A stretch of 64,000 nucleotides of DNA, taken from the NCBI RefSeq assembly GCF_023746535.1, contig NZ_CP098747.1:1184364-1248363 (forward strand), given 5' to 3'. The DNA is from Sneathiella marina. Lineage in GTDB: Bacteria > Pseudomonadota > Alphaproteobacteria > Sneathiellales > Sneathiellaceae. Shown one piece after another: positions 13,759-42,697 of the stretch (position 1 is the stretch's first letter; every line of letters begins with the position of its first letter). A model generated the notes under the pieces. That model was not told where the DNA came from. It made no database searches and saw only the letters and a list, made by a program, of their open reading frames with translations. The position numbers were made by a program, and so were the translations under genes.

Positions 13759-13760
13759 GT

Positions 13761-16027: not shown

Positions 16028-16075
16028 TTGTTGAGGTTTTAACTAAATTCAATAGTCTTTTAGGAGATTCAAATA

Positions 16076-19100: not shown

Positions 19101-19123
19101 GGAAACGTTACCTTGATATCGAG

Positions 19124-19159: not shown

Positions 19160-19181
19160 GATTTTCATTTGTTGTCGGAGG

Positions 19182-20516: not shown

Positions 20517-21287
20517 ATGAAAAAGGACACCACATTACAGACCGTTAGCCGTGCCGTTAGAGTATTGCGTTGCTTCGATGGGGGCTCGCTCGATTTATCC
20601 CTAAAGGAACTGACCGAACGCATGGCTTTAAACAAAGTGACGGTTTTGCGTCTGGCACGAACCCTCGTAATGGAGGGTTTATTAGTTCACGATTCCCGAA
20701 CGGGCCTCTATCGGTTGTCTTTCGGCTGTATAGGGCTGGCCCGCAAGCTAGTAAATCGCGACGGACTATTCGAATGCGCCCTGACTTATATGGAAGAAGT
20801 CCGCCAAAATACGAATGAAACAGTTTGCCTCATTGTCCGTGAAGAGCTGGACCGTGTGACCACGCATTCTTTACCAAGTTTTCAGCAGGTCCGTTTTGTC
20901 CTCGAAGTCGGCGACCGTCGCCCGGTTTATATGGGTGCCGCAGGTCAATGTTTGATTTCTGAGCTGTCTGAGAGCGAACTTGAGACGATTTTCGCGCAAG
21001 CCGACGATAGACCGGGTCAGGAATACAAAGCCGTCAGCAAAGCCGAAGCTTTAGACAGGTTAGCCCTGGTTCGAAAGCGCGGCTGGGCAATTGGTCGTGG
21101 CGAGTGGTCTTCAGAAGCGGCAGGTGCCGCCGCGCCAATCCACGGCAGCGATGGAACCGTTCGTGGGGCAATCAGCGTCGTCATGCCGATAACACGCGCT
21201 GCAGACGAATATATGGAAAACTGTGCCCGGACCGCAAAGAAAGCCGCCCTTCAAATATCAAAAGAGTTGTCACGACAACATCAATAG
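20517..21287 (+). CDS. IclR family transcriptional regulator (first copy)
   Basis: About 256 residues. The N-terminal winged helix contains LSLKELTERMALNKVTVLRL (about residues 27-46); the C-terminal effector domain has the GAAGQCLISEL and GEWSSEAAGAAAPI segments expected of IclR proteins. The ATG at 20517 is chosen because homology begins there; an earlier in-frame GTG/TTG would add 38 residues of poor quality. Encoded 12 bases before the CoA-transferase and divergent from the TAXI transporter, so probably a substrate-sensing regulator of both. A dyad at 20299 is its likely site. Confidence 0.87.
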   Translation: MKKDTTLQTVSRAVRVLRCFDGGSLDLSLKELTERMALNKVTVLRLARTLVMEGLLVHDSRTGLYRLSFGCIGLARKLVNRDGLFECALTYMEEVRQNTNETVCLIVREELDRVTTHSLPSFQQVRFVLEVGDRRPVYMGAAGQCLISELSESELETIFAQADDRPGQEYKAVSKAEALDRLALVRKRGWAIGRGEWSSEAAGAAAPIHGSDGTVRGAISVVMPITRAADEYMENCARTAKKAALQISKELSRQHQ

Positions 21288-21299
21288 GAACTTAGACAC

Positions 21300-27339: not shown

Positions 27340-29580
27340 TCACTCCCGTGCCATTTCAGCTTTGCCGACCCCTTCACCGTCCAAGTTTTTTTGCTTCGCC
27401 ATATGAACGGTGATTTTACGGAGAAAACCATTGAATTCAAAGGGGGAATCATAGTCTCCAACAGGATTTCCGCGGTCCCGTCCGATATCCAGCCCGGACC
27501 ATGAAATCAGCATAAAGAAACCAAGGTGACTTTCGATTCTGCCCGCTGGTTCCCCATCAATCAACAGGGTATAGCGGCTTTTGCCCATGCCGATACCCAT
27601 TTTAGGTTTTTCCTCGCGCGTTAGTCGTTCCACCTTTATCCCAAGCAAGCGCCGTCCAGGCTCCACGGGTTTATCCGATGTCACGACGACATGCTCGCCA
27701 CCTATATTCAAATCATGTACCAAAAAGCCATCGCGTAGAAAAAGGCTATATCCTGAGGTGCTGTCACCGTGAGCGATCAGAACGCCTTGTCCGCCCTTTT
27801 TTGGTATATCCACATCCGCCTCTATCCTGTAATCACGACTACGAAGATCTGGCGCTACGTCTGATGGAATGTGGCCAACGCCGCGATGGAAAACGGCTTT
27901 ATTGCGGGCACCTTGCAATCGTTCCGCATTTTCGGCAAAGCGCGGAGCAAAGCGATCGTCCAAGGGAAGAACTTTGTGCTTCTCTGCTTCCTCCCACCAA
28001 TTGCTAATCATTTCTGACAGCCGGTCCGGATGAACACCTGCGAGATCGTGGGCCTCGGAGAAATCTTCCTCCAGGTTGTAAAGTTCCCAATTATCTTCCT
28101 CAAACGGAGTGCCCATGGGATGGAACGCGACAGCTTTCCATCCGTCTTGCCAAAGGCCACGATGTCCGAACATTTCAAAATACTGTGGAGCTTCCCGAGA
28201 TGGCGCATCTACTTGAAAAAGGCTTTGCTTGAAGCTATGCCCCTCAATTGGCTGTTGCTCAACACCGTTGATTTGGCTTGGTGGTTCGATCGATATCAAA
28301 TCGAGTAGGGTAGGGACAAGATCGCTGCAATGAGCAAACTGATGCCGTAATTCTCCCTTGGCCAAGATGTTTTCTGGCCAAGAAATAATGAGTGGATCTC
28401 GGATTCCACCGCCGTGCGTATTCTGTTTATATCTTTTTAACGGTGTGTTTGCCGCCATTGCCCAACCATGGGGAAAGTTCGAATGTGTATCCGGTCCACC
28501 AATATCCTCAATTCGTGCTATTTTTTCGGCCATAGGTTCAGGCCTCAGATTGAACGGCCCCATGGCGTTGACGAGCCCATTTCGCCCACCTTCCTGGCTA
28601 GCGCCGTTGTCCGATAAAACCAGAATAAGAGTATTATCTTTTTGTCCTGTTTTTTCCAAAAAGTCGATTAGTCGGGTGATTTGTTGGTCAGTATGATCCA
28701 GCATGCCGGCATAGGCAGATTGCAGCCGTGTAAAAAGGCGGCGTTCCTCCGGGCTATGACTTTCCCATTCCTTTACACCATCATTTCGCGGTGGCATGTC
28801 TGTGCCGGGCGGGACTATCCCCATTTCCATTTGCCGAGCCATACGTTTTTGGCGTTCTTTGTCCCACCCTTCTTCAAACATGGGGTCATAGCTTTTTATG
28901 ATGCCCTTCGGCGCCTGATGAGGTGCATGGCAGGCCCCAAAAGCACACCACAACAGCCACGGATGTTCCTCTCCACCTGCCTGGTGATCCGCTAGTAGTC
29001 GAATGGACTGATCAACCAAATCCTCTGTCAAATGATAGCCTGAGACAAAATCTCCCGGCGGGTCGATATGGCCGTTGTCCCTGATCAACTCAGGTGCATA
29101 GTGGTCTGTTTCCGCATCAAGAAATCCGTAGAACCGATCAAATCCGCGACTCAAAGGCCATCCGTCAAATGGCCCTGTAGGGCCGCTTTCACTTAGCGGT
29201 GTGACATGCCATTTTCCGATCATGTAATTGCGATATGCATGAGGCCTTAGCATTTCGGCGAGTGTACCAGCCGATTTAGCAATCTTTCCCCGATAGCCGG
29301 GATAGCCGCTATCAAAATTTGCGAGGCATCCAACTCCTACCGAATGATGGTTTCTTCCCGTTAGAAGAGACGCGCGGGTTGTTGAACACATGGCCGTTGT
29401 ATGGAACCCTGTATAGCGAAGGCCTGAAGCTGCAATGGCATCTATCGCAGGGGTGCGGATCGAAGAGCCGTAACATCCGAAATCAGAAAAACCGACATCA
29501 TCGAAAAGAACTACTAGAATGTTAGGGGCGCCCTTCGGCGGTAGGACCGGATCAGGCCACCATGGCTTGGTTTCTTCCAT
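27340..29580 (-). CDS. Type I arylsulfatase-like enzyme, cytoplasmic
   Basis: Hydrolyses sulfate esters. The 746-residue protein begins with the metal-binding NILVVLFDDVGFSD strand (20-33) and has the active-site motif CSTTRASLLTGRN (Cys65), in which the cysteine would be converted to formylglycine. The IGKWH segment (about 120) completes the site. About the last 170 residues form an extra beta-rich region (VDIPKKGGQGVLIAHGD onward). There is no signal peptide, so it acts inside the cell after import. The ATG at 29580 has AAGGA eight bases upstream, unlike the in-frame ATG at 29634. Last gene of the CoA-transferase operon. No formylglycine-generating enzyme is in the window. Confidence 0.85.
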   Translation of the reverse strand: MEETKPWWPDPVLPPKGAPNILVVLFDDVGFSDFGCYGSSIRTPAIDAIAASGLRYTGFHTTAMCSTTRASLLTGRNHHSVGVGCLANFDSGYPGYRGKIAKSAGTLAEMLRPHAYRNYMIGKWHVTPLSESGPTGPFDGWPLSRGFDRFYGFLDAETDHYAPELIRDNGHIDPPGDFVSGYHLTEDLVDQSIRLLADHQAGGEEHPWLLWCAFGACHAPHQAPKGIIKSYDPMFEEGWDKERQKRMARQMEMGIVPPGTDMPPRNDGVKEWESHSPEERRLFTRLQSAYAGMLDHTDQQITRLIDFLEKTGQKDNTLILVLSDNGASQEGGRNGLVNAMGPFNLRPEPMAEKIARIEDIGGPDTHSNFPHGWAMAANTPLKRYKQNTHGGGIRDPLIISWPENILAKGELRHQFAHCSDLVPTLLDLISIEPPSQINGVEQQPIEGHSFKQSLFQVDAPSREAPQYFEMFGHRGLWQDGWKAVAFHPMGTPFEEDNWELYNLEEDFSEAHDLAGVHPDRLSEMISNWWEEAEKHKVLPLDDRFAPRFAENAERLQGARNKAVFHRGVGHIPSDVAPDLRSRDYRIEADVDIPKKGGQGVLIAHGDSTSGYSLFLRDGFLVHDLNIGGEHVVVTSDKPVEPGRRLLGIKVERLTREEKPKMGIGMGKSRYTLLIDGEPAGRIESHLGFFMLISWSGLDIGRDRGNPVGDYDSPFEFNGFLRKITVHMAKQKNLDGEGVGKAEMARE

Positions 29581-29649
29581 CAGTTTATCCTTTTTCGCCT
29601 GCGTAATAGGCGTGTTATTTATTCTGGCAACCATAGAAATTCAGTGAGA

Positions 29650-30825
29650 CTACCTGCGAATAGTTCCCCTTTCAGAAACTTGTTTCTTTGTATTTTTTGC
29701 GATGTTGAGCTGATGTATCTGACTGGTTCCTTCATATAATCTGAAGAGCCGTACATCTCTGTAGAAGCGTTCGATATTGCTATAATCCGCCACATAACCA
29801 GAGCCTCCAAAAATTTGAACGGCACGATCTGCAACCCGTCCGCACATTTCGGTCGCAAAATATTTGCACATGGAGGCTTCAAGTGTCACATCGCCACCGT
29901 CATCCCGCTTGCGGGCCGTTTCCAGAATGAGTGCACGAGCGGCAGCGATTTCCGTATGGCTATCCGCGATCATAGCCTGAACAAGCTGGAAGTCTGCAAT
30001 TGGGGCTCCAAACTGTTGGCGCTCTAGAGCATGCTTGGTAGCTTCATCCAGCATTCGCATTGCCGGACCTGTACTCAGTGCAGACAAGTGAATTCGTTGC
30101 TTGTTCAAGGCCTTCATAGCCGTTTTAAAACCAACTCCTTCCTTGCCTCCTAAAATACGGGTTGCCGGAATGCGGCAGTTTTCAAAGTATACTTCAGATA
30201 CTGGAGACCCAGATTGCCCCATCATTTTATAGGCAGGGCCAACAGATAATCCCGGTGTATCGCGATCAACCAGAAACGCGCTGATCCCGTTATGGGTTGG
30301 GTCGTTTACATCTGTTCGAGCAAAAACGGTGAACAGGTCTGAAATAGGGGCGTTGGTGATATAAGCCTTGGATCCGTTTAGAATAAAGCTGTCACCATCG
30401 CGAATTGCTGTTGTTTTGAGCGCAGTAGCCTCAGACCCTGCTTCTTTTTCCGTGAGAGCAAAGCAACCAACAATATCACCGTTCGCCAGCTTGGGAAGAA
30501 AGGCGTTCTTTTGCTGGCCGGTTCCATCAACAATAAGGGATTCGCTGCCAATACCGGTATTAGATCCAACCCGAGCCCGAAACGCGACAGAGCAGTAAGA
30601 GAGTTCGAAGGCCGCAAACACAAGTTCTTCAGTTGTCAAACCTGCGCCGCCGTATTGTTCGGGAACGGACCATCCGAAAAATCCACTCCTCTGCATGTCA
30701 TCGACGAGGTCTTGGGGGACTTCATTGAGAGAGGCGACCCGGTCTTCGTTAGGGATCGCGACGTTCTCGACCCATTGACGGATTTTGGCCAGAAATATTT
30801 CGTTTGCTTCGGTATCTCGTATCAT
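29650..30825 (-). CDS. Acyl-CoA dehydrogenase, short/medium-chain type
   Basis: A 391-residue FAD enzyme that oxidises an acyl-CoA at the 2,3 position. FAD-binding segments CFALTEKEAGSEAT and AYITNAPISDLF are visible, followed by RQQFGAPIADFQLVQ. The catalytic base is at Glu365 in LYEGTSQIHQ, the C-terminal position of short- and medium-chain enzymes. This differs from the isovaleryl-type enzyme at 14807. It follows the nitronate-monooxygenase-like gene by 40 bases and precedes the sulfatase by 69, so all three are probably on one transcript. Substrate unknown. Confidence 0.88.
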   Translation of the reverse strand: MIRDTEANEIFLAKIRQWVENVAIPNEDRVASLNEVPQDLVDDMQRSGFFGWSVPEQYGGAGLTTEELVFAAFELSYCSVAFRARVGSNTGIGSESLIVDGTGQQKNAFLPKLANGDIVGCFALTEKEAGSEATALKTTAIRDGDSFILNGSKAYITNAPISDLFTVFARTDVNDPTHNGISAFLVDRDTPGLSVGPAYKMMGQSGSPVSEVYFENCRIPATRILGGKEGVGFKTAMKALNKQRIHLSALSTGPAMRMLDEATKHALERQQFGAPIADFQLVQAMIADSHTEIAAARALILETARKRDDGGDVTLEASMCKYFATEMCGRVADRAVQIFGGSGYVADYSNIERFYRDVRLFRLYEGTSQIHQLNIAKNTKKQVSERGTIRR

Positions 30826-30865
30826 TTTTATTATTCGCTTTCGAATATCGATTTAGCGGTGGGGG

Positions 30866-31957
30866 TCAGGCGCCTGTCAAACGTGTGATATTGGCAAACG
30901 AGTCATTGGTCTCTGAAACCAACCGTTTCATAATTTCATCTACAGTCTTTAGCTCATTGAACCACACGATACACTGTCCCGTGGCGTCATAGATCAGGGG
31001 CTCGACTTCATGCTCATTTATACCTGCAATAATATCAGCAGTAAGAACCTGCTGATAAGGCATTGAAAGTGGCGTAGGGGCGCTTTCCTTATTCCATTCT
31101 TCAGTCCATGCCGTTTTAATAAGACGGGCTGGTTTACCGCTGTGGCTATAAGATATCTCCGTATCTAGGCTTGTTGCCTTCAAAAGCTTTTGAGTGAGCA
31201 CATCAGATAACGCATGCTCCTTGGAGGTAAGCCAGGCAGTGCCGAGCCAGACACCCTGCGCACCAAGGGCGAGAGATGCCGCAATATGACAGCCGTGGCC
31301 TACACCTCCGGCAGCCAAAACAGGTATGTCACCAGCCGCCTTAACAATTTGGGGCACCAAGGAAAAAGTGCCGATTGGTCCAGTATGTCCACCAGCGTCA
31401 TAGCCTTGGGCAACAATCAAGTCGACACCAGCGTCGCGGGCCTTGGCAGCGTGGCGGGGTGCACCGACCAATGAGATCGTCTTTTTCCCGTATCGCTTGG
31501 CGCGACCTATCATTTCCGGTGGCATGCCGACAGCAGAAGCAAAACTATGGGTGCCGGATTCAAGTGTTGCGGCCATTTGTTCTTCAAATAATTGCTGTGA
31601 CCGGGTCTGTGAAGAAAAGAAGGTAGGCTTGGTTGCTTCAGGAACATGGTACTTTTCAGCTAGACCAGCTACGAAATCTTTGTGTTCTTGCGGTAAGCTA
31701 TCAACAACCTTCTTCCGATCTGTTTCTTCGCCGACAGACGCGGGGATCATTAAATCGATACCGAAGGGCAGGCCGTCCAATTCCTCCTGCATTATCTTTG
31801 CTTCGGCGGCGATCTCTTCAGGCATACTTCTGGCCGCACCAAAAACCGGGTATCCACCTGCTTTTCCAAGGGCAACCATGACATCAATACTATGAGCAAG
31901 GCCGAAGATCGGATATCGAATTCCCATTTCTTTACAAATCGGTGTGGCAAGCTCCAT
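30866..31957 (-). CDS. Nitronate monooxygenase-like FMN protein
   Basis: A TIM-barrel flavoprotein of about 363 residues in the NMO/2-nitropropane dioxygenase superfamily. It shows RYPIFGLAHS near the start and the phosphate-binding VLAAGGVGHGCHIAASLALG (about 222-241) followed by GVWLGTAWL. A GYDAGGHTGPIG loop is also typical. Members range from nitronate oxidases to enoyl reductases, and acyl-CoA context suggests the latter may be as likely. ATG 31957 is used, with AAAGGA nine bases upstream; the longer frame would begin with TTG inside the IclR stop. Nineteen bases after the IclR gene. Confidence 0.78.
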   Translation of the reverse strand: MELATPICKEMGIRYPIFGLAHSIDVMVALGKAGGYPVFGAARSMPEEIAAEAKIMQEELDGLPFGIDLMIPASVGEETDRKKVVDSLPQEHKDFVAGLAEKYHVPEATKPTFFSSQTRSQQLFEEQMAATLESGTHSFASAVGMPPEMIGRAKRYGKKTISLVGAPRHAAKARDAGVDLIVAQGYDAGGHTGPIGTFSLVPQIVKAAGDIPVLAAGGVGHGCHIAASLALGAQGVWLGTAWLTSKEHALSDVLTQKLLKATSLDTEISYSHSGKPARLIKTAWTEEWNKESAPTPLSMPYQQVLTADIIAGINEHEVEPLIYDATGQCIVWFNELKTVDEIMKRLVSETNDSFANITRLTGA

Positions 31958-31976
31958 AACGTCATGTCCTTTATTA

Positions 31977-32810
31977 TTAGTTTCCAAAGATATTTATGAG
32001 GCGCAAGTTTTCCGCAACTGAAGCAAGCCGAGGGGCAAGATCATTTTCAACCTCTTCCTTGCGGGCTCGATAGGCTGGAATACCGCAGGAAATTGTCACG
32101 TCAAGACCATCCGATGTCTTGCCAATAGGCGCTGCCATGGCATGCATATTTTCGCGCCATTCACCAAATGAAATGCAATAACCCTTCTCTTTGCAGCTTT
32201 TGATGGACTCTTCAATACGCGTTCCACACGCTTCCAGAGATCCCGGATATTGGCTTTCGATTTCCTCCAGTTTAAGGGCAAGCTGTTCGTCTGAAAGCAT
32301 GGACAGGAGAGACCTGCCTGTTGCTGTATTCGCGAGGGGGATAGTCATTCCCATCTCCGGTACATGAGGGAAATTCGAGGTATCTCCTGCAGTCTGAATG
32401 TAAACTGTATCTGCCCCATTGAAGACGGCGAGAGATGTATTCCCTTTCGCAAATTCTGCAAATTCTGACATAAGCCCTACCGCTTTTTGCCGCCATTTCA
32501 TGGACGATAATATAGGATATGAAAGCGCCAAAATTCCAGGAGCCAGCCTGAAACCTCCTTTCGGATTCCTACGCAAGTACTGAAGTGCCATTAGTGTTTT
32601 ACAGAGTCGTGAAACCGTCGCTTTATTGATTTCAAGCCGTTTCGCAATCTGTATGTTTGTCAGGACCTCTTCTGCGTCTCGGAAGCACCCTAATATTTCC
32701 ATCCCACGGATTAAAGTCAAGGACAAAGAGGCATCTTTTTCTACCAATTTGTCTTTTAAAAATAGATGCTTGTTGTGATTTCCTGAAGATCTACTGGAAA
32801 GGTTCGTCAT
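31977..32810 (-). CDS. IclR family transcriptional regulator (second copy)
   Basis: 277 residues with a 25-residue charged N-terminal extension, then a winged helix containing LTNIQIAKRLEINKATVSRL (about 50-69). The effector domain has NTATGRSLLSML and CISFGEWRENMHAMAAPI. The ATG overlaps the CoA-transferase stop by four bases (ATGA). It therefore lies inside the operon it probably controls, unlike the first copy, which is upstream of its CoA-transferase. Likely effector is the imported acid or its CoA ester. Control region at 34040-34142. Confidence 0.87.
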   Translation of the reverse strand: MTNLSSRSSGNHNKHLFLKDKLVEKDASLSLTLIRGMEILGCFRDAEEVLTNIQIAKRLEINKATVSRLCKTLMALQYLRRNPKGGFRLAPGILALSYPILSSMKWRQKAVGLMSEFAEFAKGNTSLAVFNGADTVYIQTAGDTSNFPHVPEMGMTIPLANTATGRSLLSMLSDEQLALKLEEIESQYPGSLEACGTRIEESIKSCKEKGYCISFGEWRENMHAMAAPIGKTSDGLDVTISCGIPAYRARKEEVENDLAPRLASVAENLRLINIFGN

Positions 32811-34039
32811 ATAATCCCTCGCTCCCGATAGGCGTTGATTTCATCAACGGACATTCCTAGCAGATTTTCATAGAGAGCGACATTGTTTGCCCCCAGATTC
32901 TTCGCTGTCCATCTTATGTTTCCGGGATAACGGGTAAATTTAGGCGTCACGGCCTGAAGCCGAACAGATCCGAAATCGTCATCTGGGACTGAAACGATGG
33001 CCTCTCTTGCGGTATACTGTGGATCCTTGAAAATCTGATCGACGGAATATATTGGAGCGATTGTTCCTTTTGCTTTGGAAAATGCTTCTAGAACTTCCTC
33101 CAGAGTATGTGAGGCAATGAACCCACCAAAAAGGCGGTCAAGCTCGACCGCATTTTGAACCCTCAAACCATTGCTGCTAAACCTCGGGTCCTCAACCAAT
33201 TCCGGGCGACCAATTGCACACGCATTTGCAAGAAAAGTTGAATTGGTGCTGCCAGCTAAAGAGACATAGCATTTGTCACTGGTCATATAAACATCGGAAG
33301 GCGCCGAATATTGGTTCCGATTGCCACTCCGTTCTCTCACTGTTCCTAATTGATCATATTCAACGGCAAGAAAGTCCAGTAGCCGAAAGGTTGCTTCAGT
33401 AAGGGACAAGTCAATCTCTTCCCCAACTTGCTTAGGGTGTCTTGCAACTTGAAAAAGCGCGGCGAGAATTGACATGGCGCCGAACAGTCCACCGATCGCG
33501 TCGGACAGCGGATATCCTGTATGCATGGGAAGGCCTTCCGGTTCTCCGGTAATATGGGTAAGACCGCCCATTGCTTCGAATATGCGAGCGAAACCAGGCT
33601 GGTCAACATAAGGGCCATATTGTCCAAATGCTGTTACTCTGAGAATGACAAGCTTTGGGTTGGCTTTCCAGAGAGTTGCTTGATCCAATCCCCATTTCTC
33701 AAGGGTTCCAGGTCTGAAATTTTCGATTAAGACGTCAAATTTGGGCAGCATCTTCAAAAGAAGTTCCGCTCCTTCTTTTTTTCGAAGATCCAGGGTACCA
33801 AATTTCTTGCCCCTATTGGCGGCCTTCCACCACAGCGATTTTCCTTCTTTAAAGGGTGGAAACCCGCGCATACCGTCTCCCGTTTCGGGAAGTTCAAGCT
33901 TTACAACATCGGCGCCAAAATCAGCCAGCAGCGTTCCGGCAAACGGTCCGGCGATAATTGTGGCGATGTCCAGAATTCGAAGACCTGATAACGGGCCCTT
34001 GCCACTTGCTTCGCCCATCTTGCTGCCTGTTTCGTCCAT
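32807..34039 (-). CDS. Family III CoA-transferase (second copy)
   Basis: A 410-residue CaiB/BaiF-type enzyme and first gene of a five-gene minus-strand operon. It has GLRILDIATIIAGPFAGTLL, DFGADVVKLELPETGD, LIENFRPGTL (about 109-118) and the probable catalytic aspartate in GYPLSDAIGGLFGA. It resembles the copy at 21300 strongly enough to suggest duplication or related substrates. An AGGA sits eight bases before the ATG. It presumably activates the acid brought in by the divergent TAXI system. Confidence 0.9.
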   Translation of the reverse strand: MDETGSKMGEASGKGPLSGLRILDIATIIAGPFAGTLLADFGADVVKLELPETGDGMRGFPPFKEGKSLWWKAANRGKKFGTLDLRKKEGAELLLKMLPKFDVLIENFRPGTLEKWGLDQATLWKANPKLVILRVTAFGQYGPYVDQPGFARIFEAMGGLTHITGEPEGLPMHTGYPLSDAIGGLFGAMSILAALFQVARHPKQVGEEIDLSLTEATFRLLDFLAVEYDQLGTVRERSGNRNQYSAPSDVYMTSDKCYVSLAGSTNSTFLANACAIGRPELVEDPRFSSNGLRVQNAVELDRLFGGFIASHTLEEVLEAFSKAKGTIAPIYSVDQIFKDPQYTAREAIVSVPDDDFGSVRLQAVTPKFTRYPGNIRWTAKNLGANNVALYENLLGMSVDEINAYRERGII

Positions 34040-34074
34040 TTGAAAATCCTGGTTTCTCTTTTTCTAGTTAGCTA

Positions 34075-34114
34075 TTGACATATATTGTTACGATAATTAA
34101 AACATATTTGTCAA
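34075..34114. promoter_or_regulatory. Divergent promoter region with overlapping -35 elements
   Basis: The 103-base gap holds TTGACA at 34075 on the plus strand, followed 17 bases later by TAAAAC. On the minus strand TTGACA reads from 34114. The two form an imperfect dyad of 40 bases. ACGATAAT occurs twice on the plus strand (near 34090 and 34137). One IclR protein bound here could control both directions. Confidence 0.45.
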
Positions 34115-34142
34115 TTGTATTAATAAATGAAAAATAACGATA

Positions 34143-35387
34143 ATGAATTTCAATTATTCACCCGAAACAGAAGATTTAGTCCGTCGCGTAGAGATGTTTT
34201 TTGCATCTGAAATCTTGCCGCGACATCGTGAATGGGTGCAAGAAGTTGGTCGTGAAGGTCAGGCGCCGTCCTTCATCAAGGAAATTCAGGCCAAAGCAAA
34301 ATCCCTTGGTTTATGGAATCTCGCGTTGCCGGATCTAGCACCGGATGAGCCGGGGACCCGCCTGAGTAATCTGGAGTTTGCTCCAATTGCTGAAATACTG
34401 GGGCGGCTTCCATGGGGATCCATGGCGTTTAACTGTCATGCGCCAGAAGTACCAAACATGGCGATGCTCCAATCGATTGCGACACGTGAGCAAAAAGCTC
34501 GCTGGCTAAAGCCGCTGCTGGAGGCGGAAACCAGGTCGGCGTTTGCCATGACTGAGCCATCGGTGGCGTCTTCTGATGCAACGAATATTGAGACCAAAAT
34601 CGAATTTGAAGACGATATGATCGTAATCAACGGGCACAAATGGTTTTCGACGGGTGCCGCACATCCTGACTGTTCATTTCTGATTGTAATGGGAGTGAGT
34701 GATCCGGAAGCAGGGCGCACCGCTCAGCATAGTATGGTCATCGTCCCGATCAACACTCCGGGCCTGAAAATTGTTCGCGATCTTAGGTTTATGGGATGGA
34801 CGGATCACGTGGCCCCAATTGGCGAGATCAAATTTGAAAACGTCAAGGTGCCTGCTTCAAACCTACTCGGTATTCGCGGGGAGGGCTTTAAGGGAGCGCA
34901 GGTTCGTCTCGGGCCCGCGCGGATACATCATTGCATGCGTTGCATTGGGCTTGCAGAAATGGTTCTGGCGCAAATGGTCGCCCGTGCGCAGGAGCGAAAA
35001 ACATTTGGAAGAACTATTGTTGAATACGATACAGTGCAGAAATGGATCGCCGAAGCCCGAATAGACATTGAGCAGACGCGGTTGTTTATCCAACGGGCAG
35101 CTTGGATGCTCGATAACAGTTCAGATAGAAATACCTGGCGTGCTGTATCGCAGATAAAAGTTGCGACACCGCGCATGCTTCAGAAGATTACAGATCGGGC
35201 CATACAGCTTTTTGGCGCCATGGGCGGAACGGACGATACTTTAATCCATCATGCTTGGACCTACTCTCGCTGGTTACGCATTGGGGATGGCCCTGACGAA
35301 GTCCATTTGCGCCAGATTTACAAAACTGAACCACTACCAGACTGGTCGATAGCGGATTGTCCTTATATTGCGCCGTCAGCGGCCTAG
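34143..35387 (+). CDS. Acyl-CoA dehydrogenase, ACAD10/11-like
   Basis: A 414-residue flavoenzyme of the branch near ACAD10/ACAD11, which oxidises unusual or long acyl-CoAs. Typical segments are FAMTEPSVASSDATN (about 134-148), the RLGPARIHHCMRCIGLAE helix, and a C-terminal GDGPDEVHLRQI, in which aspartate replaces the usual glutamate base. The AT-rich leader has no clear ribosome site. It is divergent from the CoA-transferase operon and ends 17 bases before the TAXI permease start, so transport and oxidation are likely made together. Confidence 0.88.
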   Translation: MNFNYSPETEDLVRRVEMFFASEILPRHREWVQEVGREGQAPSFIKEIQAKAKSLGLWNLALPDLAPDEPGTRLSNLEFAPIAEILGRLPWGSMAFNCHAPEVPNMAMLQSIATREQKARWLKPLLEAETRSAFAMTEPSVASSDATNIETKIEFEDDMIVINGHKWFSTGAAHPDCSFLIVMGVSDPEAGRTAQHSMVIVPINTPGLKIVRDLRFMGWTDHVAPIGEIKFENVKVPASNLLGIRGEGFKGAQVRLGPARIHHCMRCIGLAEMVLAQMVARAQERKTFGRTIVEYDTVQKWIAEARIDIEQTRLFIQRAAWMLDNSSDRNTWRAVSQIKVATPRMLQKITDRAIQLFGAMGGTDDTLIHHAWTYSRWLRIGDGPDEVHLRQIYKTEPLPDWSIADCPYIAPSAA

Positions 35388-35404
35388 GGAGAAGGAATTC
35401 ATTA

Positions 35405-37312
35405 TTGACCTCAAGCCTTAAATCAACCCTCAACTGGTTCTCCGCGATAGTTGGTGCGGTTATTGCCTTGCAGGCAATATACGTTGCGATGGCTGGTGGC
35501 TGGGATATTACTTTATCCAGGTCTTGGATATTATGTGGTGCGGTTATTGTCGCATTGCTGAACAACTTGTTGGCGGACAAGCGCTTAAAATCGGGCGACC
35601 TGCCAAGTGGTCCGTTCAAAGTTGCGCTATGGGCTTTTGACTTGTTGTTGATCGTCATATTCGTGATTGCAACATTAAAATTCATTGAGATTATGCGGCT
35701 CATTGAAGAGACCCTGTTCGAGTACGAGACGGCTGATATTGCCATTGCCTTCGCAGGTGTATTGGTCCTATTGGAAACGACCCGGCGTCTTTTCGGGCTG
35801 CCCATCGTAATAATAGCTGCATTGGGTATTCTATACTGCTTATATGGTGAGTATCTGCCGGGCTTCCTAAATCATTCGGGTTTTAGCCTGAACCGTTCTA
35901 TGCAGACAATTTGGTACAGCTTCCAAGGTGTCTATGGGCTACCCATGGGTGTCGTATTGCAAGTCGTTCTGATTTTTGTCGTGTTTGGCGTCGTTCTAGA
36001 GGGAAGCGGGGCGAGTGATGCGCTTATTCGGGCCTCCGTTGCCTTAACAGGCCGGACGCGCGGTGGGCCTGCGCATTCAGCTGTAGTTGCCAGTGCGGTA
36101 TTTGGAAGTATGTCGGGAAGCGTCACTGCAAACGTCGTGGGGACAGGCTCCTTTACAATTCCCATGATCAAGCGGCGCGGGTTTCCGGCCGCTACAGCGG
36201 GAGGAATTGAAGCTGCGGCATCTACCGGCGGCCAAATTGTCCCTCCGGTTATGGGTGCGGCTGCCTTCTTAATGGCGGACCTAACTGGAAGCGCCTATAC
36301 GACAATATGTATTGCTGCGCTGATTCCGGCACTTTTTTACTATGGTTCTCTATTTGCCTCTATCTCTATTCAGGCTGGTGCAAGCGGCATTGAACCTATC
36401 CCGAAAAGCGAGCGTCCACCCCTTAACAAACAGGACTTGGTCGCGTGCTTATTATTTGTAATCCCAATCCTTACAATAGTCTTCGTTCTGGTCATGGGAC
36501 GATCTCCTGCTCTGGCTGGTTTCTGGGCAATAGTTGCGGCAGTTATTCTTGGAGGCTTTAACAAAAGGAACAGAGAGAACCCCCGGGTTATTTGGGAGGT
36601 ATTGAAGAAGGCCGGTCGCGCCTGCGCCTGGATCATTGTCGCTGTCGGTTGCATTGGTGTCATACTTGGTGTTCTTAACCTGACAGGCCTCGGCTTGGCT
36701 TTCGCATCCGTCGTTGCAGAATTCAGTGAATACTCCCTGTTTGCTGCCTTACTGACGACGGCACTGGCGGCATTGGTACTAGGCATGGGAATGCCAACCC
36801 TACCAGCATATCTGATCATTATCCTTGTTCTCGGGCCCGTCATGCAGAAACTAGGGGCCGAGCTCATTCCGACCCATATGTTTGTTTTTTACTTCGGTGT
36901 TCTGTCCGCCATCACGCCGCCCGTTGCCATTGGTGCTTTCGCGGCCGCACCCATCGCCGGCGCCCATCCATTTTCAACAGCTATCGCCGCTGTTCGATTG
37001 GCCATTGTCGGTTTTATCATCCCTTTTATTTTCGTGTATGAACCCTCACTTCTGCTTGTTGGCAGCTTTGATCTTGAAAGCTTCGTAAGAGTCAGTGTCA
37101 GTCTTGCGTTTGCCATCTGGCTGATCAATACCGCGATGATTGGGTATGAGGGAGGAAATCTTGGCTCGATAGAGCGTTCACTTCGTGCGCTTGTCGGTGT
37201 GGGTCTGCTTATCCAGGTTCCAGCCCTTCAAATGGGTCTGCTTGTGATTGGTATTCTGATCGTTATCCAAAGGAGAATGCAGGCACGCAGGAAAGACACG
37301 CAAAAACTATAA
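35405..37312 (+). CDS. TAXI-type TRAP transporter fused permease (second copy)
   Basis: Fused TRAP permease of about 635 residues with some 16 hydrophobic segments. GSFTIPMIKRRGFPAATAGG and AASTGGQIVPPVMGAAAF mark the large part. It begins with TTG at 35405, placed eight bases after GAAGGA; an earlier TTG at 35357 would overlap the dehydrogenase. Here the permease precedes the receptor, the reverse of the first TAXI system, so the two copies are not a recent tandem duplication. Confidence 0.88.
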   Translation: MTSSLKSTLNWFSAIVGAVIALQAIYVAMAGGWDITLSRSWILCGAVIVALLNNLLADKRLKSGDLPSGPFKVALWAFDLLLIVIFVIATLKFIEIMRLIEETLFEYETADIAIAFAGVLVLLETTRRLFGLPIVIIAALGILYCLYGEYLPGFLNHSGFSLNRSMQTIWYSFQGVYGLPMGVVLQVVLIFVVFGVVLEGSGASDALIRASVALTGRTRGGPAHSAVVASAVFGSMSGSVTANVVGTGSFTIPMIKRRGFPAATAGGIEAAASTGGQIVPPVMGAAAFLMADLTGSAYTTICIAALIPALFYYGSLFASISIQAGASGIEPIPKSERPPLNKQDLVACLLFVIPILTIVFVLVMGRSPALAGFWAIVAAVILGGFNKRNRENPRVIWEVLKKAGRACAWIIVAVGCIGVILGVLNLTGLGLAFASVVAEFSEYSLFAALLTTALAALVLGMGMPTLPAYLIIILVLGPVMQKLGAELIPTHMFVFYFGVLSAITPPVAIGAFAAAPIAGAHPFSTAIAAVRLAIVGFIIPFIFVYEPSLLLVGSFDLESFVRVSVSLAFAIWLINTAMIGYEGGNLGSIERSLRALVGVGLLIQVPALQMGLLVIGILIVIQRRMQARRKDTQKL

Positions 37313-37352
37313 AAAATATATGCAATTTTTTTAGATACAGAGGAGGATTACA

Positions 37353-38390
37353 ATGAAAAACGCTAAAAAATACATTGGATTTGCCAAATCAATGGCAGTC
37401 GGATTCGGTTTGGTCTTGGGCATGTCTCAAGTCGCCGGGGCACAGGATAACTTTAAAATGGCATCGCTCGGCGCAGCATCTCCGTCGACAACCTTTTCCA
37501 TCACTTTGATTGAATTATTGAAGAAAAACAATGGTTACAAAGTTCAACTTTCCACTGGGGCACCAGCGACTAGACAAGCCGTTGATGCCGCCAAAAGAGA
37601 GCTGGATTTGTATGTTACCGCGGTCTCTATCAATCATTTTATGAAAAATGGCTTGCGGATGTACAAGAAGATGGAAGATGCGCCGGAGCTATTCGCCAAC
37701 CTTCGGGGTATTCTAAATTACCCTCTTGGCGCTTATCACGGAATTGTCTGGGCTGATTCAGGGATCAAATCTCTCGCGGACATCAAGGGCAAGAAGGTAT
37801 TTACCGGACCTCCCTCTGGGGCTGCCCGGACTGTTGTCGGTCAGATTATTAAAGGATCGACAGGGTATGAAGCGAAGACGGATTATGACGCTATAAATCT
37901 CGATTGGAGTTCTGCCGCACAGGCTTTTCAGGACAGGCAAGTTGATGTCTATTTTGTACCAACGTCCATCCCAAATGCTCAAATAGAACAAATTGCTGTG
38001 TTGGGTGAGTTTCGTGTTCTTGGAATTCCGGATAGTGCTCTTGAATCCGAGGAAATGAAACGAGCGTCTTCCTTGCCAGGACGTAGTTTTGTTATGCTGT
38101 CATCGGATCAATATCCAAACATGGCCAATGAGGGAAGCGTGCGGTTGTTGAACACTACCGTTGGTCTTGGTGCCAACAAATGGATGAGCGAAGAAGATGC
38201 CTACAATATTACCAAAACAGCGCTCACTCATAATTCGGAATTGGCTGCTGCGGCTGCTTGGATGAAAGTCATCACACCGCAAACCGCACTTGAGCAAATG
38301 AATATGCCGCTCCATATGGGCGCCTATAAATACTACAAGGAAGTGGGCATTGATGTGCCAGACGAGATTGTCCCGCCAGAAGCCAAATAA
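37353..38390 (+). CDS. TAXI family TRAP transporter solute receptor (second copy)
   Basis: Periplasmic receptor of 345 residues with a signal peptide cut near QVAGAQDN (about residue 30). The mature part begins FKMASLGAASPSTTFSITL, similar to but clearly different from the first receptor, then has KSLADIKGKKVFTGPP. A strong ribosome site (GAGGAGG) precedes the ATG. The divergence suggests a different ligand from the first copy. A GC-rich hairpin follows the stop. Confidence 0.85.
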   Translation: MKNAKKYIGFAKSMAVGFGLVLGMSQVAGAQDNFKMASLGAASPSTTFSITLIELLKKNNGYKVQLSTGAPATRQAVDAAKRELDLYVTAVSINHFMKNGLRMYKKMEDAPELFANLRGILNYPLGAYHGIVWADSGIKSLADIKGKKVFTGPPSGAARTVVGQIIKGSTGYEAKTDYDAINLDWSSAAQAFQDRQVDVYFVPTSIPNAQIEQIAVLGEFRVLGIPDSALESEEMKRASSLPGRSFVMLSSDQYPNMANEGSVRLLNTTVGLGANKWMSEEDAYNITKTALTHNSELAAAAAWMKVITPQTALEQMNMPLHMGAYKYYKEVGIDVPDEIVPPEAK

Positions 38391-38405
38391 TCTAGTTAAA
38401 CCGAT

Positions 38406-38429
38406 CCGCGGCCGGAGCTACGGCCGCGG
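38406..38429 (+). terminator. GC-rich hairpin after the second TAXI receptor
   Basis: Perfect 9-base stem CCGCGGCCG / CGGCCGCGG around GAGCTA, 16 bases after the stop codon. There is no T-run, so termination may be rho-assisted, but the location is right for the end of the operon. Confidence 0.6.
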
Positions 38430-38702
38430 TTAGGGTGCAGGCGGAGCATTATGCCGTTAGCAACTTCATCATAAAATTTGATTTTGAGGAAGCTTAGAAC
38501 TCTGTATACCGTTGAACAGCAACGATTTATGGGCATTGAATATTCCAAGAAATTTTTGTCAAAATGGTCATCGTCTCCGTGGCCTTGTAAGAGTAAAAAT
38601 GTTGAAACATTACCCTGTTCTCAACATTAGCTTCTCTGTTTTACAAATAATTTTAGAGTATTTTAAGCGAAGATTACGCCGAATTGGCCAGAGTTCCCCG
38701 TT

Positions 38703-38725
38703 TTTTCCCTGTTACACAGGGAAAA
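38703..38725. repeat. Perfect inverted repeat in a gene-poor region
   Basis: TTTTCCCTGT and ACAGGGAAAA around TAC: a 10-base stem with a three-base loop. It could be a REP-like element or part of a small mobile element. No second copy was noticed in the window. Confidence 0.5.
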
Positions 38726-38955
38726 TTGCCGAGACAGATTCGCCCCTGAACCCTGCAGATTCAAGAGCTGAATCATAGAGAAGCTTAGGATTTTAAGCCG
38801 GGCAGCTGTCGGGAGATGTACGGCTTTACCTCGCAAGATTACGTGCTTTGGCAACCTATTTATAGCTTGATTGAGCAGGCCTTCTTTTTTGTCAAACTTA
38901 ATCAAAGACAATGTCTGCATTGCGCATCACTAGATATGAGCGGTAGCCTCAAGCT

Positions 38956-39282
38956 ATGAAGCAACCCAATTCAAAAATGTGTTTTATTCTAGTGGAGTTG
39001 TGTGCGGTCTCAACCCTGCAAAGAATTGCCGATGACGTGCCTGAAATAATATCGGTTTTAAAACGGCTGGCTGATGGCGAATTACAGCAAGTTTTTCGTT
39101 CAAGAGACGGCCTAGTGTTTGGCTTTTTTATGAGGACATCCCTCCCGTTGGATGTCGTGCGTTCAAGCCTACAAAGAAGCGAGGCCAGCTTGGGCGACGA
39201 TAGCTTCTTGCTGTTGGAAGTAAGTGACGAATTTTCTGCAAAAGGGTTTTCCCGCGCTTGGACCTGGCTTCAGCATAATTAA
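38956..39282 (+). CDS. Small protein of unknown function, 108 residues
   Basis: I do not recognise a family. The product is soluble, with mixed helix and strand character: VELCAVSTLQRIADDVPEIISVLKR near the start, GELQQVFRSRDGLVFGFFMRT in the middle, then SSLQRSEASLGDDSFLLLEVSDEF. No signal peptide or membrane segment. The ribosome site is weak, and ATG 38977 is a possible second start. Support for a real gene comes from sensible composition and from a strong hairpin 20 bases after the stop. Confidence 0.5.
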   Translation: MKQPNSKMCFILVELCAVSTLQRIADDVPEIISVLKRLADGELQQVFRSRDGLVFGFFMRTSLPLDVVRSSLQRSEASLGDDSFLLLEVSDEFSAKGFSRAWTWLQHN

Positions 39283-39301
39283 TACACTTTTAAAGAGTTT
39301 G

Positions 39302-39336
39302 GAGAAAAGAGTTTCAAGTTATGAGGCTCTTTTCTC
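39302..39336 (+). terminator. Hairpin after the 108-residue gene
   Basis: Perfect 10-base stem GAGAAAAGAG / CTCTTTTCTC with a 15-base loop, 20 bases after the stop, followed by ATTTCCC. The T content of the right arm helps, so termination in the plus direction is plausible. Confidence 0.6.
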
Positions 39337-39608
39337 ATTTCCCTGATTCGAATTTCACGCATATATAGTATTGACTACACACTAATAGGTTATATACTAC
39401 TTATTCGATAATTCAGGTAATCTGATGTTGTCCAGAAAGATAATTTATTTCAATAAAACCAATAATTTATAAAATATTAAGTAACTAATTATTTAAATTT
39501 TTTATAAAACTTATAGGTTGTATGAGTTTAAATTCAATTTTTGATTGCTTTACAATTAGCTCAAATTTTATCCACTGAGCCGGTACTTTATTTTTTGCAG
39601 AGGATAAG
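39337..39608. other. AT-rich region with candidate promoter
   Basis: Very AT-rich, unlike flanking catabolic genes. TTGACT (39371-39376) and TATACT (39393-39398), 16 apart, could be a promoter for the next gene, leaving a leader of about 200 bases. No gene seen. Confidence 0.35.
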
Positions 39609-40070
39609 ATGAAAAATATTACTATAGAAACCGCATTTTTGCAGGACACCAGTATTTCCCTTGAAAGTAGATTAATTCAGCTATTACAGTTTGACGTTAT
39701 TGAAGAATATACTTGCAACAATTTTCAGATTAAAAACTATTGCTTGAACGTGACCAATTTCATTTTGAGTCATTCCGATAAAATCGATGATCTGCAAATA
39801 AATTGTTTGTTGCGCAAGGTTCAAGGCTTGCTTGAACGATTGGAAATCTCAGAATGCTATGATTTGCGTGAAGCAATAACGCTCCTGGAAATCGCCTGGT
39901 ATAATTCTTACTTTCATGACTGTCGGCTTTATATCAAAGGCATCCATGACGACGAATCGATACGGTGTCAGAATAAGGCCGTCATTGTAGCAGCCTTATC
40001 TGCGTTGCAAGGTCCGATGTTTCCAAGCAGGCTAACTTTTAGCAAGATACCCTGTTTCCTCAATTCTTGA
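39609..40070 (+). CDS. Small protein of unknown function, 153 residues
   Basis: No family recognised. The protein is helical in character, rich in isoleucine, leucine and cysteine, without signal peptide or clear membrane segment. LLRKVQGLLERLEISE and CYDLREAITLLEIAWYNS are likely amphipathic helices. AGAGGAT five bases before the ATG is a good ribosome site, and a terminator-like hairpin starts 10 bases after the stop, so the gene is probably real. Its low GC content differs from the neighbouring metabolic genes and hints at acquisition from elsewhere. Confidence 0.55.
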   Translation: MKNITIETAFLQDTSISLESRLIQLLQFDVIEEYTCNNFQIKNYCLNVTNFILSHSDKIDDLQINCLLRKVQGLLERLEISECYDLREAITLLEIAWYNSYFHDCRLYIKGIHDDESIRCQNKAVIVAALSALQGPMFPSRLTFSKIPCFLNS

Positions 40071-40079
40071 TGTTGTTAA

Positions 40080-40108
40080 GAAGGGCGGTGCGATGGCATC
40101 CGCCCTTC
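40080..40108 (+). terminator. Hairpin after the 153-residue gene
   Basis: Perfect 9-base stem GAAGGGCGG / CCGCCCTTC with an 11-base loop, 10 bases after the stop. Followed by ATTCTCC rather than a clean T-run. Confidence 0.65.
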
Positions 40109-40492
40109 ATTCTCCAGCGCTCCAATTATTGTCGTTCCGAGAATCCAGTTATGGGGGGGGGCGGCACTAATTTGGGCTCACCTGTTATGCGTCAGAGCCG
40201 CGCTGACAGACAGTGTCCGATTTAGTTCGAGCAACTCTACAAAGCCGACTTCGATTACGCGCAAAGGCCACCAGCGGAAAGGTTTCGATCGACAACAAAC
40301 AATGTTACTCAACTGATTTGAGGCGGTGAAAGAAGAAATTGAGATAAAATACTATCGTTTGAGCGGCGAGTAGCGGTCATTCTGCGTATAACGTTTCATG
40401 ATCGATGTAGAAGCATTGCCGGTTATCGTATTTTTATGACGTCTTCATGGGCTTCACCTTCGTGAGCAACGGAACACCCCTGGCAATGTTCT
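40109..40492. other. Intergenic region with a G9 run
   Basis: 384 bases with no recognised gene. A run of nine G at 40153-40161 is the only striking feature. It may be prone to slippage or sequencing error. Confidence 0.5.
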
Positions 40493-42697
40493 TCAACCTT
40501 TTAGCACCATTGAAGACATGTTTTGAGGCGCGTTGATTTTCGTAATTCGACCCGGAAAGCCTTTAAAATGCGGAATACCTTGCTCATAATCGAGAAATTC
40601 ATCATCATCTGAACACAGCACGGCGTCACTGGATATGAATGCGCCGGCCAATTCTTCCACACCCTTTAGTTCAGGATACCACCAACCGTGGGGGACGCGT
40701 ATGTGGCCAACTTTCATGGTATTATGGATCGAGATCTTCGCTTTGACAGTACCGATCTTGGTTTCCAATTTAACCCAGTCACCCTCGACAACGTTTTCCG
40801 CTGTAGCATCTGCAGGATGCAGAAATAATTTGGGTGACGGTGAACGTTCACGTAAGACCGGGATATTTCGTTGGCCCGTCTGGAAAAACGAATCCTCGCG
40901 CACCCCGGTAAATACGGCATAAGGATATTTTTCACATAAAGCAGGGCCTTCACGATAATAAGGTAACGGATCAAATCCAAGATCATCCAGTATACTTGAA
41001 TATAGTTCGACTTTTCCGGACGGTGTAGCAAAACCTGTTTGAAGATATTTCTGATATACGGGAGCCGGGATTTCCATAAAACTGGTCGCTTCAAATTCCG
41101 CAAATGTGCGGTTGGAACGCGATAACCTATGGTCCAGCATATCGTCCAGACTGGACCAAGGGAAATGCTCAGCAAACCCCATTCTGTGCGCCAGATCTGT
41201 CCAAAACTGGAAAGTGCTGCTGGCCTGCTCTGGCGGCTCGGCAATTTTCTGCGACAACGTCAGCCGGTTAGCCCAACTCCAACTATCGCCAATGTGGTTG
41301 CGTTCTGAAAATACATCTCCGGGTAACACATAATCTGCGAGCATAGCTGTCGGAGTCATGAAAATTTCATGTGCTACGATTAGATCCTGGTTCATCAGAC
41401 CTTCAAGAATCTGATGCTGATTGGGATAGCTGAGAAGGGTATTGTTCCCCAAGGTGAAAAGAGCTTTAACAGGATACGGGTCGCCAGTAGCCATCGCCCG
41501 AAATACATGGGTTGGATTGGCCATTTGACAGCCCATAACAATATCAGCGTAGGGATACCCCCAAGTTTTTTCTGTGGGATCTTTCAGTATTTCAGCCACG
41601 CGATAGGTAAAAGCCGGATGGTCATAAAAGCCAAGTTGCTTGGCTTTTTGTTCGGATGACAACGCATCGTGTAATCCTATTTCGGATTCCGGAATATAAT
41701 CTGCATTAAAACCGCCAAGAGTTTCGCCACCTTTGATATCAAGATTACCAGTTATTGCGCGTAAAATAGAATGCAGGCGAATTGCCGAAGTGGAGGAAAT
41801 CTGCTGATCAGTGATGGGAGTCCATGGGATTGTAGCGCCATCCGAATTCGCATATAGGCGTGCTGCTTCGGCAATCAGTTCACGATCCACTCCAGTAATA
41901 GCTTCCACTCGTTCCAGCGGATACTCATCTACGCGTTTACGTAAATCATCAAAGCCAAGGCACCATTCATTTACGAATGACTGATCGAATAAGTCTTCAT
42001 CAATAATTACCTTTAACCAGCCGAGGCACATGGCGGCGTCAGTACCGGCGCGTAATCCTAAATGCAAATCGGCCTTTTCAGCCTGATCAGATACACGTGG
42101 ATCCAGCACAATTACCTTCGCGCCACGAGAGCGGGCCAAATTGATGGCATTGTAAATGGGGGTCCATGAGTGCTTTCTCGGATTATGCCCGAATAATACG
42201 ATACATTTGGTATTGGCGTAGTCAGGCTGCGGAAACCAGCCATAAGTGATCCGGTTCACTGCCGCCGTATTACCAGCACATAAGGCGACACCACTGATCC
42301 AATTTGGAGATCCCAGCAGGTTCATAAATCGACGGTCAGTGCTGTGGGTGGTCTGGGTATTCCAGCCTGAAGTTGAAACGGCTAACGCCTCTGCACCATA
42401 GCGGTCTACAACTGACTTAAGTCGATCAGCAATCTCATCCATGGCCTGATCGTATGAAATCTCTTGCCATTTGTCTTCGCCGCGCTTGCCGATGCGCTTT
42501 AACGGAACTCGCAACCGGTCTTTATGATTGTGAATATCTGGAGCCGCGACACCTTTGTAGCAAATATTCCGGGCCAGCATTGGATTGTCATGTGCCATTA
42601 TCCGCTCTAACTTGCCGTCCACGGCTTCCGAGCGAAGTTGACATCCGGCATCGCAAATAGTGCAGACGGAGTATTTGGTCTCTGTGTTTTTGGCCAT
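40493..42697 (-). CDS. Molybdopterin oxidoreductase, formate-dehydrogenase-like
   Basis: A 734-residue member of the DMSO reductase superfamily. A [4Fe-4S] cluster is bound by Cys12, Cys15, Cys19 and Cys46. The molybdenum ligand is probably Cys140 in SGVALCAGNTAAVN, where formate dehydrogenases have Sec or Cys. The C-terminal molybdopterin-binding domain includes GVREDSFFQTGQRN and LFLHPADATAENV. There is no twin-arginine signal, so it is cytoplasmic. No partner subunits for quinone or NAD are adjacent; it stands with a MarR regulator only. Formate or another small substrate is possible; the reaction is not determined by sequence. Confidence 0.8.
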   Translation of the reverse strand: MAKNTETKYSVCTICDAGCQLRSEAVDGKLERIMAHDNPMLARNICYKGVAAPDIHNHKDRLRVPLKRIGKRGEDKWQEISYDQAMDEIADRLKSVVDRYGAEALAVSTSGWNTQTTHSTDRRFMNLLGSPNWISGVALCAGNTAAVNRITYGWFPQPDYANTKCIVLFGHNPRKHSWTPIYNAINLARSRGAKVIVLDPRVSDQAEKADLHLGLRAGTDAAMCLGWLKVIIDEDLFDQSFVNEWCLGFDDLRKRVDEYPLERVEAITGVDRELIAEAARLYANSDGATIPWTPITDQQISSTSAIRLHSILRAITGNLDIKGGETLGGFNADYIPESEIGLHDALSSEQKAKQLGFYDHPAFTYRVAEILKDPTEKTWGYPYADIVMGCQMANPTHVFRAMATGDPYPVKALFTLGNNTLLSYPNQHQILEGLMNQDLIVAHEIFMTPTAMLADYVLPGDVFSERNHIGDSWSWANRLTLSQKIAEPPEQASSTFQFWTDLAHRMGFAEHFPWSSLDDMLDHRLSRSNRTFAEFEATSFMEIPAPVYQKYLQTGFATPSGKVELYSSILDDLGFDPLPYYREGPALCEKYPYAVFTGVREDSFFQTGQRNIPVLRERSPSPKLFLHPADATAENVVEGDWVKLETKIGTVKAKISIHNTMKVGHIRVPHGWWYPELKGVEELAGAFISSDAVLCSDDDEFLDYEQGIPHFKGFPGRITKINAPQNMSSMVLKG

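Follow-up and report, generated by a model that had tools for sequence, protein, structure and literature searches.

Small organosulfates are common marine compounds; to our knowledge, their use as a carbon source by bacteria is poorly understood. Four sulfatase families, S1 to S4, are laid out in PMC5066984 (accessible part), where the catalytic pattern is given as [CS]-x-[PA]-x-R and the third place is held, among 4058 sequences, by Pro in 87%, by Ala in 369 and by any other residue in less than 1% each. The same part of that paper lists the Pseudomonas aeruginosa arylsulfatase (PAS, or AtsA) as an S1_4 enzyme and names most of the PAS ligand residues considered below. In ACAD11, an acyl-CoA dehydrogenase, the 4-phosphate is held by R626, H634 and R637, with R631 and D753 (mouse numbering; PMC12440821, accessible part). 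Here we analyzed a window of 64,000 nucleotides (nt) from Sneathiella marina (assembly GCF_023746535.1, contig NZ_CP098747.1, positions 1,184,364 to 1,248,363), whose genome is a single contig of 4.07 Mb; all coordinates are those of the window unless given in kb. Positions 27340-38390 hold a cassette of eight genes. In the best available reading, to which we give a probability of about 0.5, these genes form one regulated catabolic unit for an organic acid that bears a sulfate ester. The cassette would thus be a concrete candidate for organosulfate use, with importer, coenzyme A (CoA) activation, sulfatase and a shared candidate operator.

What can be read directly from the sequence are the genes, their order, their joint inheritance, a conserved dyad and, in two further lineages, a related core near other sulfatases; from these we infer the substrate class, the order of steps, co-transcription and regulation.

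A conserved cassette of two divergent operons

The first-pass annotation had placed a CoA-transferase, an IclR regulator, a flavoprotein resembling nitronate monooxygenase (NMO), an acyl-CoA dehydrogenase (ACAD) and a sulfatase in one operon, and indeed all these families are present at tight spacing. Reading leftward on the minus strand, they are a type III (CaiB-like) CoA-transferase (32807..34039), the IclR-family regulator within the operon (31977..32810, PF01614 and PF09339 above cut-off), an NMO/FabK-like flavoprotein of 373 amino acids (aa; 30866..31987), a dehydrogenase of 391 aa, here ACAD1 (29650..30825, PF00441, PF02770 and PF02771 above cut-off), and an S1-type sulfatase of 764 aa (27340..29634). 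CaiB and IclR overlap by 4 nt and IclR and NMO by 11 nt, 40 nt separate NMO from ACAD1, and the gap between ACAD1 and the sulfatase is 15 nt as annotated, or 69 nt with a sulfatase start at Met19 (29580). The start at Met19 is favored by the orthologs and is probably the correct one; in eight of nine related loci the candidate start lies 55-67 nt behind ACAD1 (in the exception, L036, the start was not resolved). No terminator-like site was detected on the minus strand in the ACAD1-sulfatase gap, in a scan whose site numbers were at chance level.

The second operon reads rightward on the plus strand and consists of an ACAD10/11-like dehydrogenase (ACAD2, 34143..35387), a fused TRAP permease (35426..37312, start uncertain, with a frame open from 35357) and a TAXI-family solute receptor (37353..38390). 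The earlier assignment of these genes was right; the two operons had been described as facing each other and in fact diverge, across 103 nt.

All eight genes are found in identical order in the seven other loci long enough to contain them all (L036, L037, L038, L040, L041, L043 and L044), and two truncated loci (L039, L042) agree with this order, so that the arrangement is above chance. Protein identities across the cassette loci are 72-89%, except for TAXI (63% once) and IclR (65-75%), and the other loci do not share the genes found on either side of the cassette in the window. Orthologs of the sulfatase (79-87%), NMO (74-88%) and ACAD2 (76-87%) occur in the same 11 of the 23 other genomes of the genus, and the remaining 12 have none of the three at that level; an NMO relative at 41% in G007 and G015 was not counted as an ortholog. 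We built an rpoB tree from 16 of the 24 genomes (six had no rpoB match, and the short fragments from G008 and G010 were excluded). Nine genomes with and seven without the cassette fall on its two sides with a support of 0.93, a single split that argues for one gain or loss event. In the nearest relative (G010), a second S1-type hydrolase lies about 0.4 kb behind the TAXI gene on the same strand, which we count in favor of a sulfate-ester substrate.

The region that separates the operons (103 nt in the window and 83-85 nt elsewhere) contains a conserved dyad that we regard as a candidate IclR operator (34074..34115, no strand; inverted repeat ATTGACATATAT/ATATTTGTCAAT). The arms of 12 nt (34074-34085 and 34104-34115) are 92% complementary. 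TTGAC, TGTTTTA, GTAACA and ATGTCAA are kept in all eight Sneathiella-type intergenic regions; TTGAC and GTCAA belong to the dyad arms, TGTTTTA and GTAACA form inner blocks, and all are invariant. The TTGAC arms also resemble -35 boxes, and a general promoter scan of the region returned sites no more frequently than in shuffled sequence. On the simplest reading, the dyad would be a shared operator for the operon-borne IclR and would overlap two promoters.

The NMO-ACAD1 core near other sulfatases

Searches with the NMO, which are blind to sulfatases, showed that this protein is rare. It was found in 9 of 385 genomes of the class (E-value threshold 1e-70), and a sample of 398 from the phylum yielded the window's own genome alone (1e-80). 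Among the loci that were read, the NMO is accompanied by an ACAD1 ortholog in the Sneathiella group, in Paraburkholderia sp. PREW-6R and in G401, which alone among 61 genomes of its family has this NMO.

The G401 proteins are 44% (NMO), 64% (ACAD1), 48% (ACAD2), 45% (TRAP) and 32% (TAXI) identical to those of the cassette. Eight of the nine PF00884 proteins of G401 are encoded at 1204-1255 kb, with the NMO at 1221.5 kb and the nearest sulfatase about 4.4 kb from it; three of the five sulfatases that were scanned pass the choline-sulfatase model. On the Paraburkholderia plasmid (NZ_CP155075; NMO 49%, ACAD1 61%, CaiB 43%), an S1 sulfatase best matched by arylsulfatase chains lies 8.6 kb from the NMO and adjoins an MFS-type transporter. 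The sulfatases of both lineages are non-orthologous to that of the window, with identities of 20-24% for five of G401 and of 35% over 136 residues for Paraburkholderia.

As controls we used 20 loci with NMO or ACAD1 alone, and tblastn with a panel of seven S1 sulfatases found such an enzyme in none of them. NMO alone was represented by 11 loci at 34-39% and two at 44-45% (G302 and G379, without cassette or sulfatase), ACAD1 alone by seven at 63-67%; ten of 16 plasmid records with NMO were examined, and of 80 with ACAD1 seven besides Paraburkholderia (from 12 listed). The panel includes the sulfatases of the positive loci themselves, which had first been recognized by profile or structure search. 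Since the control loci include about 10 kb of flank on either side, and less in some, a more distant partner (such as ACAD1 in G401) would be missed. In one control, from Sulfitobacter, the panel did not detect a fragment annotated with a sulfatase/phosphatase domain, which lies 7.6 kb downstream of ACAD1.

Non-orthologous sulfatases near the core in two further lineages, against none in 20 controls, therefore argue for a role with sulfate esters. This link amounts to support and not proof, as three lineages are few.

As a separate observation, the sulfatase island of G401 (L161, L156, L162 and L206; 1195-1259 kb) also contains two TAXI receptors with permease-like neighbors, and GMC alcohol and aldehyde dehydrogenases.

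The sulfatase, the importer and the CoA enzymes

The sulfatase scores 199.2 bits with PF00884 (cut-off 25). Its best solved relative is PAS (1hdh, 2.4e-80), with residues 36-548 of the query aligned end to end. Equivalents of PAS Asp13, Asp14, Cys51, Arg55, Lys113, His115, His211, Asp317, Asn318 and Lys375 are all present, His115 and Lys375 being residues that we take to be PAS ligands, and the catalytic and ligand residues are identical in 80 of 80 orthologs. The best solved chain, AtsA, belongs to S1_4, a candidate subfamily for the protein. Compared with PAS (536 aa) it extends C-terminally beyond the sulfatase domain, and its structure model has a mean predicted local distance difference test (pLDDT) score of 53. 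The first-pass annotation had considered the enzyme intracellular for want of an export signal; hydropathy agrees, the N-terminus having no hydrophobic leader. A phosphonate or phosphodiester hydrolase was considered and appears unlikely from the 59 bits reached with the PehA ester-hydrolase model (900 needed) and from PAS as best solved relative.

The active-site motif reads CSTTR in the window and in loci L036-L115 (80 of the 80 best orthologs), and CSPTR, CAPSR or CAPTR in four more distant homologs. Because CSTTR departs from the published pattern, we file the protein as a non-canonical S1 homolog, which probably works like a sulfatase and is probably not a canonical formylglycine sulfatase. 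With its relatives it forms a sulfatase subfamily that carries Thr at the position held by Pro or Ala in the published pattern.

The importer belongs to the TAXI-TRAP type, with 107.4 bits for the receptor (TIGR02122, cut-off 84.35) and 528.4 bits for the permease (TIGR02123, cut-off 320.65), and by hydropathy the receptor has a leader-like, hydrophobic N-terminus. TAXI-TRAP import together with a type III transferase points to a carboxylic acid. The CaiB protein has its CaiB/BaiF domain (PF02515) above cut-off (363 bits) and reached the cut-off of none of seven function-specific models. ACAD1 likewise reached no function-specific NCBIfam cut-off. It looks like an ordinary dehydrogenase, with acyl-CoA dehydrogenases and the caffeyl-CoA reductase CarC as best solved relatives and a YEGTSQ region whose Glu is presumably catalytic. 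The NMO-like protein has the NMO domain (PF03060, 155.7 bits, cut-off 28) and scores 138.8 of the 453.1 bits needed with the FabK model. As its best solved relatives are enoyl-acyl carrier protein reductases of the FabK type that use flavin mononucleotide, a role as enoyl reductase appears as likely as one as nitronate monooxygenase.

ACAD2 is closest among solved structures to 4hr3 and to ACAD11 (2wbi, 8v3u). It carries RLGPARIHHCMR and a GPDEVH motif, with the Arg-HCMR pocket and catalytic Asp at residues 255, 260, 263, 266 and 385. The pocket is present in all 20 homologs compared, four paralogs of the same genome included, and is thus family-wide. No APH-type kinase is encoded in the cassette, the eight APH matches of the genome lying elsewhere, and we therefore did not file the cassette as an LvaA-LvaC/ACAD11 pathway. 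Two APH-family matches lie 2-3 kb from a paralog of ACAD2 at 829 kb.

These features raise the very improbable alternative that ACAD2 expels sulfate from a 4-sulfooxyacyl-CoA, as ACAD11 and LvaC expel phosphate, with the sulfatase left to deal with side products. The residues with which ACAD11 holds its 4-phosphate are conserved in ACAD2 (PMC12440821, accessible part), and the absence of a kinase gene from the cassette differs from the setting of the 829 kb paralog; however, the pocket is common to the whole family, a kinase could act in trans, and the sulfatase would be partly redundant. We rank last in probability a more elaborate version, in which the sulfate ester replaces the kinase-made phosphate, ACAD2 desulfates the 4-sulfooxyacyl-CoA and the Thr-motif sulfatase, matured by an unknown route, deals with esters at different positions. 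If ACAD2 did expel sulfate, the reaction would be a CoA-dependent desulfation outside the S1-S4 families.

Proposed pathway

In the reading that we prefer, the TAXI-TRAP system would import a small organic anion, for which a carboxylic acid with a sulfate ester, or a close derivative, is the likeliest candidate, and the CaiB-type transferase would turn it into a CoA thioester. ACAD1, ACAD2 and the NMO/FabK-like flavoprotein would rework the acyl part, and the intracellular sulfatase would remove the sulfate, acting on either the free acid or the thioester. IclR may sense the substrate or the product and control both operons via the one shared site. An earlier proposal had the ester imported, joined to CoA and then desulfated inside the cell. 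The single unit, the intracellular sulfatase and the link between a CoA module and sulfate esters agree with this proposal; the ester as the imported compound, and the thioester as preceding desulfation, are its putative parts, and the order of desulfation and CoA formation lies beyond sequence. It had also been proposed that no pathway with this gene set has been described, and we found none in the literature searched, which leaves out most subscription journals; nothing in it pointed to zosteric acid or another named substrate.

Evidence against the pathway and rival readings

Several observations weigh against this pathway. The sulfatase is the last gene of its operon, possibly 69 nt from ACAD1. 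Among its best 80 relatives in the matches listed, nine have the cassette or remains of it, eight of these labelled Sneathiella. The other 71 (66-72% identity, mostly Bradyrhizobium at 69-72%; some with short flanks) all do without it; no match to CaiB, TRAP or TAXI lies nearby, and for ACAD or NMO there are just five weak ones (22-36%). A homolog at 47% is found in a sugar operon, amid sugar genes, on a Paracoccus plasmid. The sulfatase is therefore not tied to this pathway. ACAD1 orthologs accompanied by CaiB-type transferases are also found without a sulfatase (the panel detected none in the seven loci with ACAD1 only), and the module is thus of a general organic-acid type, with desulfation as an addition. 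In G401, about 11 kb separate ACAD1 from the NMO, and the stretches read contain no CaiB relative. Within the genus, presence and absence of the cassette correspond to one event, and counting eleven genomes as eleven events was rejected after the rpoB tree; five of the 12 genomes without cassette are less than 90% complete.

In a rival reading, the importer, CaiB, ACADs and NMO form a general module that degrades a non-sulfated organic acid, and the sulfatase hitch-hikes with it, having arrived behind ACAD1 a single time in an ancestor and serving an unrelated sulfate ester or sulfur supply. The cassette-free orthologs, the Variovorax and Polaromonas modules described below and the single event in the genus all fit this view, which we nevertheless consider rather unlikely: the core recurs near non-orthologous sulfatases, the unit is either retained or absent in its entirety, and sea water is rich in sulfate, so that sulfur supply is an unlikely need.

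In 16 of the 80 sulfatase loci, L048 among them, all five genes resembling a branched-chain-type ABC importer (not profiled) lie near the sulfatase ortholog.

Maturation of the sulfatase is a further point against the sulfate-ester pathway. The motif falls outside the published C-x-[PA]-x-R pattern in every one of the 80 orthologs, and the two PF03781 matches of the genome include no clear formylglycine-generating enzyme (FGE; radical-SAM maturases were not searched for). The better of the two matches chains of ToxD, CalU17, OvsA, SUMF2 and EgtB, and at E <= 1e-10 no FGE chain is among its hits; the second was compared with an FGE motif only.

The remaining points against come from another genus, g83, in which we examined the loci of five of the seven genomes with NMO (G105, G219, G311, G822 and G824). 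These loci resemble the cassette in ACAD2, TRAP, TAXI and NMO, at 47-53% identity and with ACAD2 divergent from the rest. They differ from it in having no ACAD1 and, as seen in G219, an ADP-forming acyl-CoA synthetase for CaiB, TetR for IclR and a TauD-family dioxygenase for the sulfatase. Such a dioxygenase stands in the homologous operon in all five loci and an S1 sulfatase in none, despite importer, NMO and ACAD2. The dioxygenase exceeds the taurine dioxygenase cut-off (334.9 versus 313), and g83 is therefore as suggestive of a sulfonate as of an ester. Its nearest relatives are taurine dioxygenase and then phenoxypropionate dioxygenase, with the alkylsulfatase AtsK and Rv3406 further down. 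At the positions of TauD Asp94 and Asn95, which we take to hold the taurine amine, the aligned g83 protein has Ala, and a taurine-like substrate was rejected for this reason. The protein apparently does carry the sulfo-group ligands, which counts in favor of a sulfate ester: the Val and Arg found at the sulfate site of AtsK, placed by the motifs in PMC5066984 (accessible part), are present, and the third ligand is presumably a His that we placed by equivalence.

We consider it improbable that the importer family takes organosulfonates, or a mix of sulfonates and sulfates, with the Sneathiella sulfatase handling a minor or related ester. The taurine dioxygenase score in the homologous operon fits this possibility; however, no sulfonate enzyme was recognized in the Sneathiella cassette, the presumed amine positions are occupied by Ala, and the TauD-like neighbor in G401, with Trp for the Val of the AtsK site, is nearest to phenoxypropionate dioxygenases.

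TauD-family dioxygenases in an operon with TAXI-TRAP and NMO were seen in loci L153-L155, L180 and L181. One of these, L154, has an ADP-forming acyl-CoA synthetase, and there the presumed taurine amine-binding positions are not conserved.

Neighboring genes in the window

A second group with TRAP, TAXI, IclR and CaiB genes lies at 17190-22526, 5 kb from the cassette; its CaiB is 49% identical to that of the cassette, and there is no sulfatase among its genes. Nearer the start of the window, 208-16876 encodes AtuA, a biotin carboxylase and carboxyltransferase, two enoyl-CoA hydratases, an AMP-ligase, a branched-chain-type ABC importer and an acyl-CoA dehydrogenase, and looks like a catabolic cluster for acyclic terpenes or of the leucine type (atu/liu). 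On the other side (38400-42697), the DNA at 38-40 kb has a low GC content (0.41) and no clear genes, and a molybdopterin oxidoreductase gene on the minus strand (40493-42697) reads toward the cassette.

Comparison with described systems

With AtsA (PAS), the window sulfatase shares a sulfatase domain that aligns end to end and conserved calcium and sulfate ligands. It differs in its motif (CSTTR versus CSPTR), in its greater length and in its place in a CoA operon, whereas the PAS gene presumably sits with sulfur-scavenging genes.

The plasmids of Variovorax SRS16, Polaromonas W11N and Sulfitobacter W027 carry an ACAD1 ortholog (63-67%) near a CaiB-type transferase and a tripartite-transporter gene, in the first two together with an IclR-type regulator. 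In contrast to the cassette, these modules have no NMO of the cassette type and, by the panel, no S1 sulfatase.

Sulfatase, CaiB and NMO are, as we assume, not part of the lva operon of P. putida, and the cassette in turn has no LvaA-type kinase. With that operon and with mammalian ACAD10/11, which serve 4-hydroxy acid catabolism, ACAD2 shares the ACAD10/11-type active site, and, by analogy, an acyl-CoA could lose an oxyanion from C4 in the cassette pathway too (PMC12440821, accessible part). Set beside these systems, the Sneathiella cassette is a new combination of known parts.

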